Under the pieces are notes generated by a model that searched no databases, had not been told where the DNA came from, and was given only the letters and a program-made list of their open reading frames with translations. From Pseudobdellovibrionaceae bacterium (GTDB lineage Bacteria; Bdellovibrionota; Bdellovibrionia; Bdellovibrionales; UBA1609), in the NCBI GenBank assembly GCA_030591685.1, contig JAUVAX010000028.1:1-33730 (forward strand): 33,730 bases of DNA. Reading direction: 5' to 3'. A program made the translations under genes and the position numbers. The first letter of the stretch is position 1, and each line of letters opens with the position of its first letter. Positions 29,319 through 33,400 of the stretch are shown piece after piece.

Positions 29319-29405
29319 GCCGATGTGGCGGAATTGGTAGACGCGCAGGATTCAAAATCCTGTATCTTCACGGATGTGTCGGTTCGATTCCGACCATCGG
29401 TACCA
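29319..29405 (+). tRNA. tRNA-Leu (anticodon CAA)
   Basis: An 87-base class II tRNA. Acceptor GCCGATG pairs with CATCGGT (first pair G-U), discriminator A, encoded CCA. The D-arm contains GGCGGAATTGGTAGACGC. The anticodon stem CAGGA/TCCTG encloses loop TTCAAAA, giving anticodon CAA, which reads UUG. A short variable arm (TATCTTCACGGATG region) and T-arm GTCGG TTCGATT CCGAC follow. The A-rich base 3' of the anticodon is a MiaA target. It marks the border between the conserved block on its left and accessory genes on its right; no second copy of its 3' end (an att site) is seen in the window. Confidence 0.97.
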
Positions 29406-29493
29406 TAAGTAAATGAAATTGATAATAAAATACGAAAACAAAAATCGGTTCTTCACATTTAGTCAAAAAAATATCCCTTTAAAAGGACAATCC

Positions 29494-29805
29494 ATGAGCC
29501 AGTTTGACCATATATTCATAGCCCCTAAAAATTGGGAGGCCTCCTTAGCTTTTTATAAAGACAACTTAGGCTTTGAAAAAGTCTCTTCTTGGGGAGATCA
29601 ATCAGAAGGGCGAGGAGCTGTTTTAAAAAGCGGTGGTTTTACCGTTGTCATCGCTGAAGAGCATGAAAATAAAGGGAGAATTATTAAATAATTTCAATTA
29701 CTTCAGCGCGGAACTTCGGCACCAGCTGAGCATATCACATTAAAAATTTTTACTCCGTCACCTTTTTTGCTTTAAAAGAGGTCATGGACCCTTAAAGGAG
29801 AGACA
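29494..29805 (+). pseudogene. Broken VOC/glyoxalase-family gene
   Basis: From the ATG at 29494 (AAAGGA 8 bases upstream) the frame encodes the first half of a VOC-fold protein: FDHIFIAPKNWEASLAFYKD, then NLGFEKVSSWG and AEEHENKGRIIK. It stops at TAA 29689-29691 after 65 residues, where the family normally has ~120. Reading on in the same frame past that stop gives LLQRGTSAPAEHITLKIFTP, which still looks like the middle of a VOC protein. A shifted frame then gives RGHGPLKET before the next gene starts. It is therefore a decayed gene with at least one nonsense mutation and a probable frameshift. A functional half-domain protein is less likely. Confidence 0.6.
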
Positions 29806-30168
29806 ATGAGCCCATCTAGTATAATAACTACTACTCTTGCTAGTCTTCTAGTTACATTTACTACTCATGCTGAAGAGCAAAAGCCCTCAATTGAAAAAAA
29901 TAAAATACACACAAAAATCCGAGAAAACATGAAGGACATAAGGTACTGCCAAAAAGCCTCTGACCCTAAAGCTTCTGGAAAGCTTGTTCTTGAGTGGGAA
30001 ATTCTCTCAAATGGTAAAGTTGGAGTAGTTAAGGTACTAAAATCGGTAGAAAGCTCCCTTGACGAATGTATCATCCAAAAGCTTAAAACCTGGACGTTTC
30101 AAAAGCCATCTAATGATACCACTATAAGAATCAAATACCCCATCGTATTCTCAAACTTCAAAGACTAA
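29806..30168 (+). CDS. Small periplasmic TonB/AgmX-type domain protein
   Basis: A 120-residue protein with a signal peptide ending near THA (residues 20-22). The mature part has the pattern of AgmX/PglI and TonB C-terminal domains: RYCQKA, then GKLVLEWEILSNGKV, a strand VVKVLKS, a second cysteine in LDECIIQKL and TWTFQKP. The two cysteines (in RYC and DEC) are usually both present in the family and may pair. AAAGGAG stands just upstream of the ATG. Such single-domain proteins are common in predatory and gliding delta-proteobacteria-like bacteria; the partner here is unknown. Confidence 0.65.
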   Translation: MSPSSIITTTLASLLVTFTTHAEEQKPSIEKNKIHTKIRENMKDIRYCQKASDPKASGKLVLEWEILSNGKVGVVKVLKSVESSLDECIIQKLKTWTFQKPSNDTTIRIKYPIVFSNFKD

Positions 30169-30215: not shown

Positions 30216-30325
30216 GGGACGGAGGCTAATTTGCTGCCCCAAGTTCCCCAATAATTATCTAAAATATTTAATCAAATTAAAGGCGTATGACCTTTAGATA
30301 GAAACTGAATTTATGCCTCCGTCCC
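30216..30325. repeat. 110-bp palindromic repeat, copy 1 (MITE/REP-like)
   Basis: Bounded by perfect 11-bp inverted ends, GGGACGGAGGC (30216-30226) and GCCTCCGTCCC (30315-30325). Inside, ATCTAAA (30257-30263) pairs with TTTAGAT (30293-30299), with TTTAAT-CAA-ATTAAA between them. GGGACGGAGG-type ends recall palindromes mobilised by REP-associated transposases, but no transposase of that type is in the window. Apart from this element and the adjacent tandem repeat, the 30169-30553 gap shows no gene. Confidence 0.8.
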
Positions 30326-30346
30326 TGGATTTGGTCCCTGGATTTG
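30321..30346. repeat. 13-bp tandem duplication at the edge of repeat copy 1
   Basis: GTCCCTGGATTTG occurs twice head-to-tail (30321-30333, 30334-30346), starting inside the right terminus of the 110-bp repeat. It looks like a slippage or transposition scar. Confidence 0.8.
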
Positions 30347-30553
30347 TTTTCAGCAATTAGCAGTAAATAGCTTCATGGTATTTGTTATACAAATCTCTGA
30401 TTTATGTAGCGTAGGTAGATTGGTACAGTCTAATATTGAAATTTACGGTTAAATACTTAAACTATATAGGGCTAAAAACCGATAAACAGTTATAATAATA
30501 AAGTAGTTTTTGTGTTCACCAACAAGATGAAAACCAGTTGTACTGGAGTTCAA

Positions 30554-31729
30554 GTGAGTTTAAAGAAAGTCTATCTTCCGCTGTTTTCCATTATCGTTTT
30601 AACGATGGTCTTCTCATTTTTTCAAAACTGTCAGTCAATTTCCCCTTCTCTCCCCTCGACGCAAGAAAGTTTAAATCTCACTTATAGTAAAATAGACGTA
30701 GACAACGAAGGGCATCCGTTTAAAACCGCCTTTAATGGTCGGTTTGATCCAAGTATTACCTACGATGATGCTGGTATTGGTTGGATGGTCTACTCCAGTG
30801 TTGGCGGGGGAAGAGATCCATTTGGTCCTTATATTCAAACAGAGCTAGCAAAAAGTAATGATAATGGAAAAACATGGGCGTGGGTTCAAACTATTAACCC
30901 CGCATATGATGATTCCTTTAATCCACCAAACGGGCCACTATTAGAAGGAAACTGGAACTATGAGGTATCAACAATTACCTATAGCCCAAGTGACCCAGTT
31001 AACAAATGGAAAATACTTTCCCATAAATTGTTTGCCCCTCAGGATACGGGTCATAATGATCCCAGGTACTCGTGGATAATTTACAAAGAGGCTCCCACTC
31101 CTAACGGACCATGGTCAGCAGAGAGAGCCTTATTCAAGGCTGACTTTGCTCCGTTAGAGCCCTTTAATGATGTACCCGAAATAAATTTAAATGATTTATA
31201 TCAGGGGTCAGAGGATATAGTTGCTTACTCTGAACCAGGTTTGATAGATTTTAATGGCAAGCTGTACTTGAATATCACTGCTTTATCTGCTGATGGTCCT
31301 AGTAAAATCCTTTTACTTAATTCTGAAGATCATGGTCAAAACTGGAATTTTATAGGAGTACTTACAGATATTGAAGATGCAGAAAAACTTGGATACAGAG
31401 CCCTTGATGGGTCAGCTTTAGTTATTGGAAAGAACAACGTCATTTACTTTTTAATAGCTCCAATTCTAGAAGGAAGTACATTTGTTCATGACGGAACTTT
31501 AGTAGTTAAAGTTCTTGATATTAATCAAGCTAATCTAAGCCGTGATAGTAACGGAAAACTTATAGTTGAACGTCATATATTTGCAAATCCAGATATATTT
31601 AGTGGTAATGGTGCCGGCCAATCCACATATCACTATAAAAATATTAATGGAGGCTTAATTATGTCTCAAATGCACATAGATAATCATCCAGAAGTTTTCA
31701 AGATATTTAATACAAAAATTAATTTTTAA
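30554..31729 (+). CDS. Sialidase-like (Asp-box) beta-propeller lipoprotein
   Basis: I choose the GTG at 30554 (GGAG 5 bases upstream), giving 391 residues and a clean lipoprotein signal MSLKKVYLPLFSI... ending FFQNC (Cys26). Starts at 30512 or 30527 would add a poorly supported N-terminus. Asp-box motifs S-x-D-x-G-x-x-W occur at 101-108 (SNDNGKTW) and 257-264 (SEDHGQNW), the hallmark of sialidase/BNR beta-propellers. Other blade-like strands are DPSITYDDAGIGWMVYS and DGSALVIGKNNVIYFLI. It could be a glycan hydrolase or only a binding propeller; the catalytic Arg triad and Tyr/Glu pair could not be assigned. It is flanked by repeat copies 1 and 2. Confidence 0.7.
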   Translation: MSLKKVYLPLFSIIVLTMVFSFFQNCQSISPSLPSTQESLNLTYSKIDVDNEGHPFKTAFNGRFDPSITYDDAGIGWMVYSSVGGGRDPFGPYIQTELAKSNDNGKTWAWVQTINPAYDDSFNPPNGPLLEGNWNYEVSTITYSPSDPVNKWKILSHKLFAPQDTGHNDPRYSWIIYKEAPTPNGPWSAERALFKADFAPLEPFNDVPEINLNDLYQGSEDIVAYSEPGLIDFNGKLYLNITALSADGPSKILLLNSEDHGQNWNFIGVLTDIEDAEKLGYRALDGSALVIGKNNVIYFLIAPILEGSTFVHDGTLVVKVLDINQANLSRDSNGKLIVERHIFANPDIFSGNGAGQSTYHYKNINGGLIMSQMHIDNHPEVFKIFNTKINF

Positions 31730-31735
31730 AATAAT

Positions 31736-31845
31736 GGGCACGGAGCCCTGTTCGCTGCCCCAACTCTTCAATGGTCATATAAAATAATTGATAAATTAAA
31801 GGTTCACAGCTTTTATATACAAACTAATTTTGTGGCTCTTTCCCC
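31736..31845. repeat. 110-bp palindromic repeat, copy 2 (diverged)
   Basis: Same length and order as copy 1 but with degenerate ends (GGGCACGGAGCC ... GGCTCTTTCCCC). The inner stem is kept as ATATAAAA (31777-31784) with TTTTATAT (31811-31818). Compared with copies 1 and 3 one C:G pair has become A:T on both sides. It lies in the 196-base gap between the sialidase-like and TPR genes. Confidence 0.7.
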
Positions 31846-31849
31846 ATTT

Positions 31850-31879
31850 TTCACAAAAGCAGTCAAAATTTTCTATACT
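31850..31879 (+). promoter_or_regulatory. Sigma-70-like promoter of the TPR gene
   Basis: TTCACA (31850-31855), an 18-base spacer, then TATACT (31874-31879). The -35 begins 5 bases after repeat copy 2. The expected leader is ~40 bases. Confidence 0.5.
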
Positions 31880-31925
31880 TAGTCACGTTTTCCTTGGATA
31901 ATATCCATCTAACCAAGGACACTTT

Positions 31926-33128
31926 ATGATCGAGCCTAGAACGGGCAACACCCTGACATGTCAAACAGACGAAGCTGCAAATCATTATAACCGAGCCATC
32001 GATTTTATCCTAGGCTCCCAAACAGGTGCCAGTGATGAGCTAGATAAAAGCTTAGCTCTTGATAAAAACTTCGCTTTAGCTGCTGGGGCTCGTTATTTTC
32101 TCGCCAAAGACAATAAAGATCCCAATGCAAATACGTATAAACAGCAGGCACAAAAAGCAGCGCTTGATGCTACTGAATGGGAAAAAAACCATATAGCGAT
32201 GCTTTTTAATTTAATAGAAAACCCGGGCGAATCTCTTATTGATGCGAATCAATATTTAAAAGATTATCCAGGTGATCTTTTCCTGGCCTCTCAGTTAGCT
32301 GGTTATCATTTCTTTTATGGTGGCTCAAAAAAGCTCGACACCTTAGTTGAAATTTTTAATTCAATTAAGCCCACCCTAAAAGACGACTGGGCCTTTCTTG
32401 TTCGTCTTGGATTTGCCACCAGTGAGAAAGGTGATCGCAAACAAGGGCTCGAGTTTATTGAAAGATCTTTGGAGCTTCGTCCAGAATCACTTTACACCAT
32501 TCACGCTTTGGCCCACAACTTACACGATGACGGTAAACCCGAAGAATCAGCCACACTTTTACAAAACTGGCTTAATCAACACGATGACAATGCTAAAAAT
32601 GGTCAATTATACGGACATGTACAGTGGCACCTCACTTTAGCTCAATGGCAAAATGGGCAAAGAGACGACGCTCTCGAGAGATACCAAACATACTCTGCTC
32701 CAAAAACCACAACCTGCGGACCCGTTCTTACACTTGCGGATGCTGGAGGTTTTCTCTTAAGAGACTTTTTAAAAACACAAAAGAGCTCTCCACTATCAAA
32801 CGGTGATTTTGAATTAATTGATCATCTCTTTACAATGCTAACTCATCCCTTTATTGCCCTCCACATAGCAGGGCTCTATACCTCAGCTACTGATTTAGAG
32901 GGAATTAAAAAATGTGAAGACAAGCTTGTAACAAGTGAACCTGGGAGAAATAGAGACCTTTCTCTTTCACTCGTTACGGCCTTAAAACAATTCACGCTAG
33001 AAGACTACCAAGCTGCAACTAATACCCTTTCGCAAATCTCTATGGCAAGTCGAATAGGTATCGGCGGAAGCAACGTCGAAAGGGAGCTAGTTGATTTAAT
33101 AGAGCAAAGCTGTAAAGAAAAACTTTAG
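31926..33128 (+). CDS. TTC38-family tetratricopeptide-repeat protein
   Basis: A 400-residue soluble protein with no signal peptide, built of TPR-like helical pairs. It matches the family of vertebrate TTC38 in segment order: an N-terminal NHYNRAIDF helix, LYTIHALAHNLHDDGKPEE (about 194-212), HVQWHLTLAQWQNGQRDDAL, and near the end IGGSNVERELVDLIEQS. TTC38 homologues occur in diverse bacteria as well as eukaryotes; a biochemical function is not established. AAGGA lies 8 bases before the ATG, and its own promoter is seen upstream. It is bracketed by repeat copies 2 and 3. The paired His residues in the AHN and HVQWH segments are family-conserved and might form an active or metal site, which is an inference. 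Confidence 0.75.
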   Translation: MIEPRTGNTLTCQTDEAANHYNRAIDFILGSQTGASDELDKSLALDKNFALAAGARYFLAKDNKDPNANTYKQQAQKAALDATEWEKNHIAMLFNLIENPGESLIDANQYLKDYPGDLFLASQLAGYHFFYGGSKKLDTLVEIFNSIKPTLKDDWAFLVRLGFATSEKGDRKQGLEFIERSLELRPESLYTIHALAHNLHDDGKPEESATLLQNWLNQHDDNAKNGQLYGHVQWHLTLAQWQNGQRDDALERYQTYSAPKTTTCGPVLTLADAGGFLLRDFLKTQKSSPLSNGDFELIDHLFTMLTHPFIALHIAGLYTSATDLEGIKKCEDKLVTSEPGRNRDLSLSLVTALKQFTLEDYQAATNTLSQISMASRIGIGGSNVERELVDLIEQSCKEKL

Positions 33129-33193
33129 TTAGTTCGGCGACTCTGCTTGCTAAATCAGAGATTTTTAGAGGGTAAATATTTTTTAAGATTTAA

Positions 33194-33303
33194 GGGACGG
33201 AGGCTGACTTGTTGTCCCAAGTTTCCCAATGATTATCTAAAATATTTAATAAAATTAAAAGCTTATGTCTTTTAGATGCAAACTGAATACGTGGCTCTAA
33301 CAG
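33194..33303. repeat. 110-bp palindromic repeat, copy 3 (right end lost)
   Basis: Begins GGGACGGAGGC (33194-33204) and is close to copy 1 through the inner stem ATCTAAAA (33235-33242) / TTTTAGAT (33270-33277). The right terminus GCCTCCGTCCC is missing; similarity ends near GTGGCTC (about 33297), where coding-like DNA of another gene begins. Confidence 0.75.
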
Positions 33304-33363
33304 CGGAGACTGTAGTTTTGGTGGCGGAAGCTCAGGCGGGGGTAGCGCTGGCGGCAGCTGGTA
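33290..33363 (+). pseudogene. C-terminal remnant of a TPM/YgcG-type membrane protein gene
   Basis: The frame ending at TAA (33362 region) reads SGDCSFGGGSSGGGSAGGSW, immediately after repeat copy 3. A Phe-Gly-rich tail finishing in Ser-Trp is characteristic of TPM-domain (YgcG/PF04536) proteins. No body of the gene is present: upstream in this frame is a stop within the repeat. The local GC-rich Gly codons stand out from the AT-rich surroundings. It appears to be the stump of a gene cut off by the repeat. Confidence 0.55.
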
Positions 33364-33400
33364 ACTTTCTTATTCGAAGACGTCCAAAGTAGACTCACTA

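Follow-up and report, generated by a model that had tools for sequence, protein, structure and literature searches.

Tyrosine transposases that are flanked by terminal inverted repeats (TIRs) instead of GTAG REPs, and that are relatives of RAYTs, are described as TIRYTs or TIRtrons (Di Nocera et al. 2013, PMC3733652). The same report gives a GGGGWSAS motif for some TIRYT ends and describes dispersed TIR families as moderately abundant, most in Stenotrophomonas maltophilia (Di Nocera et al. 2013, PMC3733652). Twenty of the 26 described cases are placed in subclass 2.1 (Quentin et al. 2018, PMC6006769). For REPINs and GTAG REPs, a Y1 transposase is the suggested agent of movement in trans (Bertels and Rainey 2011, PMC3116915; Nunvar et al. 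2010, PMC2817692), and tandem REPIN clusters in which flanking DNA is part of the repeated unit have been reported (PMC3116915).

Here, a set of ~110-bp repeats was analysed in a 33,730-nucleotide stretch of DNA from a Pseudobdellovibrionaceae bacterium (the window, which is contig C62 in a genome of 2.66 Mb and 98 contigs). A first-pass annotation had interpreted these repeats as palindromic elements that assembled or mobilised gene cassettes. This interpretation is right in part: the repeats are miniature elements that belong to a decayed family with few copies, and the find is mostly ordinary.

Three repeats in a variable stretch and their low-copy family

The three copies are present as claimed, all on the + strand, at 30216-30325, 31736-31845 and 33194-33303. 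Copy 1 is an intact miniature element with perfect 11-bp inverted ends (GGGACGGAGGC/GCCTCCGTCCC), as had been noted. Copy 2 is a diverged miniature element that begins 6 bp past the stop of the preceding ORF. In copy 3, homology extends to ~33298 and the right inverted end is gone; fused to this broken end is what remains of the C-terminus of a Gly-rich protein (translated as NSGDCSFGGGSSGGGSAGGSW or FGGGSSGGGSAGGSW up to the stop; 33299..33364, +). The element-type inverted ends of copies 2 and 3 are degenerate. In ungapped alignment with copy 1, copy 3 is 84% identical over 104 nt and copy 2 is 71% identical over 52 nt. An inner stem is present in all three copies. The palindromy ascribed to all three holds for copy 1, which folds better than 200 of 200 shuffles (z −3.5), and fails for copies 2 and 3, whose folding as DNA does not exceed that of shuffles (z −1.2 for copy 2 and −0.5 for copy 3).

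Upstream of this stretch lies a tRNA-Leu (CAA) gene (29319..29405, +; ARAGORN, Rfam). A TonB_C/AgmX C-terminal domain ORF (29806..30168, +; Pfam TonB_C, E 1.4e-8; NCBIfam myxo_SS_tail, E 2.3e-18) stops 47 bp short of copy 1, and each interval between copies holds a single ORF of at least 100 aa, in agreement with the first-pass annotation. The first of these ORFs (30512..31729, +; 405 aa) has a lipoprotein-like start and a weak BNR/DUF4185 resemblance. The sialidase-like name once given to it is not sustained, as the best Pfam matches are non-significant (DUF4185, E 0.008; BNR, E 0.45), and no significant PDB match was obtained. Distant homologues of this ORF occur in 3 of 98 relatives, at loci from which GACGGAG is absent. 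The second ORF (31926..33128, +; 400 aa) encodes a TPR protein (TPR_15, E 1.5e-6) with one weak partial match among the 98 relatives; a search of genome contigs gave no relatives of it. Both genes had been called inconsistent with the neighbouring housekeeping DNA. Their GC contents (37.4% and 41.6%) lie within the range of the neighbours, and a foreign base composition was rejected; GC3 is 29.6% for the first, just under the lowest neighbouring value of 30.9%, and 33.9% for the second.

The stretch looks like a variable spot. In addition to the Gly-rich gene remnant, it contains a truncated VOC-like frame with a stop and, adjoining it, a lone GTGACGGAG element end (29753..29761, −), the two together covering 29430-29761, and an IS orfA-like start. 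The latter, at the end of the contig (33668-33730; VANKQYTDEFKAQILKEVKQI), resembles the beginning of orfA in an IS3-type element and was named by eye. An island with a duplicated tRNA end was considered and rejected, as no such end is found within the window, which runs to the contig edge.

A sequence model of the repeat detects seven copies in the genome: the three in the window, one on contig C39 (C39:26975-27084), two on the minus strand of contig C14 that are 0.6 kb apart (C14:2384-2493 and C14:3106-3211) and a left half on contig C73 (C73:96196-96253), which BLASTN had already shown. The model is built on sequence only and was trained on five copies, which match by construction; C14:3106 (E 1e-16) and C73 (E 1e-9) are independent finds, and the next match after the seven has an E value of 0.01. 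Few copies lie beyond the window, an outcome that the first-pass annotation had itself named as speaking against its reading, and the family is low-copy. With the same model (Infernal, stricter filters), no copies were found in 46 other genomes of the same bacterial family, and BLASTN outside the own genome returned fragments of 23-28 nt only. The pairwise identity of the six full copies is 64-80%; the family is therefore old, and the window copies form no tight group within it.

Y1 transposase elements with matching ends

The 110-bp repeat has ends (GGGACGGAG...CTCCGTCCC) that agree with the inverted ends of ~1.1-kb elements encoding Y1 (HUH) tyrosine transposases, of which this genome holds seven. 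These elements correspond to seven Pfam Y1_Tnp matches, five with E < 1e-3 and two weaker, and the seven transposase frames look related by eye. The first-pass annotation had pointed to a RAYT/Y1 transposase and had linked non-autonomous palindromes to tyrosine transposases of the REP type, and the seven Y1 genes, together with miniatures that have matching ends, bear this out. Inverted G[G/T]GACGGAG is present on both sides of six of the seven transposase units; the remaining unit is truncated at the end of its contig. The bounded units are ~1.06-1.15 kb long and IS200-like, several with a left-end hairpin (for example, GTCCGCCCCCCGGAC). The full protein sequence of the transposase on contig C49 contains RAYT-like motifs, namely NHAH (NH-A-H) and a YIEANPVRA block; this protein matches NCBIfam REP_Tyr_transpos with an E value of 1.7e-10, but at 41 bits against a curated cut-off of 80. 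The 110-bp family has only its terminal 9-11 bp in common with the transposase units, the interiors being unrelated, and the transposases are for this reason assigned as putative cognate enzymes.

Throughout the genome, four exact matches to the paired pattern GACGGAG-N(88-118)-CTCCGTC are present, versus zero for a reversed control pattern, and other miniatures with these ends are located on contigs C55, C80, C24 and C5. A second miniature family of ~120 bp with the same ends (GGGACGGAGACGCTAAATCAT...TTTGCTCCGTCAC) was seen at C55:301-454, C80:2416-2536 and C5:7037-7088. Where checked, the transposases of relatives have different inverted ends, such as GGGTGTACCTGACCC or AAAAGGTGCCTACCACC. 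Four paired GACGGAG...CTCCGTC stretches, against none for the control, were also observed on contigs C2 and C40 (L068, L080) of a genome from another family of the same order (G037), where at least three of the paired elements have common ends (GACGGAGCTC).

A GTDB scan for GGGACGGAG-N(82-112)-CTCCGTCCC returned at least 118 stretches from many phyla, some of which may be chance matches or unrelated palindromes. Stenotrophomonas, Mesorhizobium, Clostridia, Marinobacter and Aegiribacteria are among the matches listed. Beside the GGGACGGAG elements of other phyla, no relatives of the local transposases were found among the 118 loci listed (windows of up to 8 kb). In other genomes, same-end elements lie in convergent gaps more often than in divergent ones (31 versus 9). 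In a Clostridia MAG (L113, L122, L126, L141, L145 and L174), tandem arrays of ~16-bp GGGACGGAGATTTTCG-like units were noticed.

At the right end of copy 1, a 13-bp unit (GTCCCTGGATTTG) stands twice in exact tandem (30321..30346, +); it combines the last 5 bp of the element with 8 bp of flank. This arrangement, with 8 flanking bp joined to GGGAC or GTGAC, is also observed at C5, C55 and C10/C4 (three units), and a 12-bp version is present at C49. Overall, the duplicated unit is made up of ~8 bp of flank and 1-27 bp counted from the element terminus, so that its outer breakpoint falls ~8 bp beyond the element. Tandem duplications across the end are found at 31 of the 453 unique ends collected here and at the retrieved loci, compared with 0.21% of random positions; some of the 31 are located in whole-end arrays and several loci may share a genome, so that not all are independent. 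For the 14 events judged to have a definite offset, 10 fall at 7-9 bp versus the 24% expected (binomial p 2e-4), a p-value that is only indicative since the subset was hand-picked after the list was seen. Tentatively, these duplications may be a fossil record of cutting at GGGACGGAG-type ends, in which a fixed nick ~8 nt outside the inverted repeat would be followed by fill-in and re-ligation; the same process might have seeded the Clostridia GGGACGGAG arrays. If so, duplications with an ~8-bp offset would provide a sequence-level clue to the position at which the transposase cuts. Term searches and selected passages of the literature gave no report of a fixed ~8-bp offset. Similar end duplications were also noted at loci L121, L137, L166, L181, L206 and L221, and short tandem duplications of this kind are frequent at element ends in several phyla.

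Clustering and placement behind stop codons

In simulations that placed seven copies randomly in 2.66 Mb, three fell within 3.1 kb in 31 of 200,000 runs. The clustering is therefore real and far beyond chance, and random insertion does not explain such tight clustering of old, diverged copies. These statistics, like the others for this genome, derive from searches. Clustering of this degree, the shared orientation and the 80% identity of copies 1 and 3, the closest pair (the window copies are mutually 69-80% identical), would suit a single element that was multiplied in place, by segmental duplication or by nearby hops, with the copies diverging later. Such a local duplication is unlikely, however, because homology stops at the element ends and the genes between the copies are unrelated. 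Copy 2 is also equally similar to copy 3 and to the C39 copy (69% each), and copy 3 resembles one of the C14 copies (C14a, 73%) more than it does copy 2; with identities in this range, the window copies do not represent a recently amplified array. Nearby hops are in themselves compatible with the main explanation of the repeats as miniature elements.

All six full copies sit 6-79 bp past a stop codon, in either orientation. In the window, where the repeats are co-oriented right behind stop codons and each interval holds one gene, this arrangement resembles a cassette array, in which a gene and the palindrome 3' of it were moved or captured as a block and the palindromes served as recombination or transposition ends in the style of an integron or a composite transposon. 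The C14 pair likewise flanks a single gene (DUF454), and both window genes are patchy among relatives. On account of this patchiness both count as accessory, which differs from being mobile. Several observations make cassette assembly or mobilisation, as proposed in the first-pass annotation, improbable. Each of the two genes is single-copy, with no second genomic copy of either, and their base composition is ordinary. Copy 3 lacks its right end, and on C14 the orientation of the elements relative to the genes is opposite to that in the window. In other genomes, neighbouring pairs of such elements bracket 0-6 genes (mechanical ORFs of at least 100 aa). The best match to the integron integrase IntI scores 64.8 bits against a cut-off of 265, and all 14 control genomes also give hits, with similar scores; the attC core sites RYYYAAC and GTTRRRY are absent from both strands of the six copies. 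On these two results an integron was rejected. Nothing shows that the repeats carry or shuffle neighbouring genes, and the notion of the genes as cargo is not supported. As further observations on gene context, positions 1256-3307 of C14 (L083) hold a Fic/DUF4172 gene followed by a 110-bp copy and the DUF454 gene followed by another, and downstream of the C39 copy is an ORF with a resemblance, judged by eye, to a Fic protein.

A position shortly behind stop codons and an inner stem that exists in copies 1-3 might also be expected of conserved RNA elements under selection (transcription terminators or regulatory 3' hairpins, for instance). The stem had been credited with a covarying base pair, C:G replaced by A:T in copy 2. 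Across the six copies, this pair is C:G in two, A:T in one and broken in three. For the structure as a whole, covariation is 0.140 versus a shuffled mean of 0.139, with 262 of 500 shuffles as high, and the percentage paired is 78.9 versus 77.9 with shuffled partners (six copies). The lack of additional covariation was a further outcome that the first-pass annotation had named as counting against its reading. As no covariation above shuffles is found among the six copies, the double change in copy 2 is no evidence for selection on the stem, and inner-stem covariation was rejected. An alternative left-end hairpin, GGGAC/GTCCC, is paired in 87% of cells but does not clearly exceed its shuffles, 80 of 500 being as high. 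In addition, Rfam gives no family in the window except the tRNA, no T-run terminators are called at the copies, and copies 2 and 3 show the poor folding described above. A selected RNA function is accordingly highly improbable.

Origin of the repeats and comparison with known systems

Since the ends of the 110-bp repeats match those of the Y1 elements, the most fitting reading of the repeats is that they are non-autonomous miniatures derived from elements of the TIRYT/TIRtron kind. In our judgement they are very probably old miniatures that carry the ends of TIRYT/TIRtron-type Y1 elements, spread in trans, settled behind stop codons and decayed. The family and its common ends can be observed directly in this genome, as can the transposase elements, the placement of the repeats and their decay, and mobilisation in trans by these transposases, along with the order of events, is the most likely course. 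The seven Y1 transposases would have spread the miniatures in trans through single-stranded, hairpin-forming ends. The miniatures may then have settled, or survived, in short gaps right after stop codons, in the variable stretch 3' of the tRNA gene. Later decay would explain the poor folding of copies 2 and 3 and the loss of the right end of copy 3. The presence of one gene per interval is proposed to be due to clustered, neighbouring insertions downstream of genes, and such insertion of miniatures can imitate a cassette array. An unexplained repeat family is thereby placed beside the known, little-studied TIR-associated tyrosine transposases. A literature search for the literal string GGGACGG returned unrelated papers only.

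Compared with integron attC arrays, the repeats share a ~110-bp imperfect palindrome soon after each stop codon and, in the window, a common orientation. They differ in the IntI score, in the missing core sites and in a variable orientation to genes. Similar to REPINs and GTAG REPs with their RAYTs, the elements are short, palindromic, non-autonomous and intergenic; in contrast to them, they have long inverted ends and few copies instead of hundreds, and GTAG-tagged hairpins are lacking. Identity with this group was rejected, as the ends are G[G/T]GACGGAG and the GTAG tag is absent. The TIRYT/TIRtron systems differ from the present one in that the motif here is G[G/T]GACGGAG and the miniatures are low-copy, ~110-120 bp long and unrelated in their interiors. 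In both, Y1 genes lie between TIRs and non-coding TIR copies are dispersed in the genome. With the GGGGWSAS motif of some TIRYT ends, GGGGACGG agrees in part, at 7 of 8 positions.
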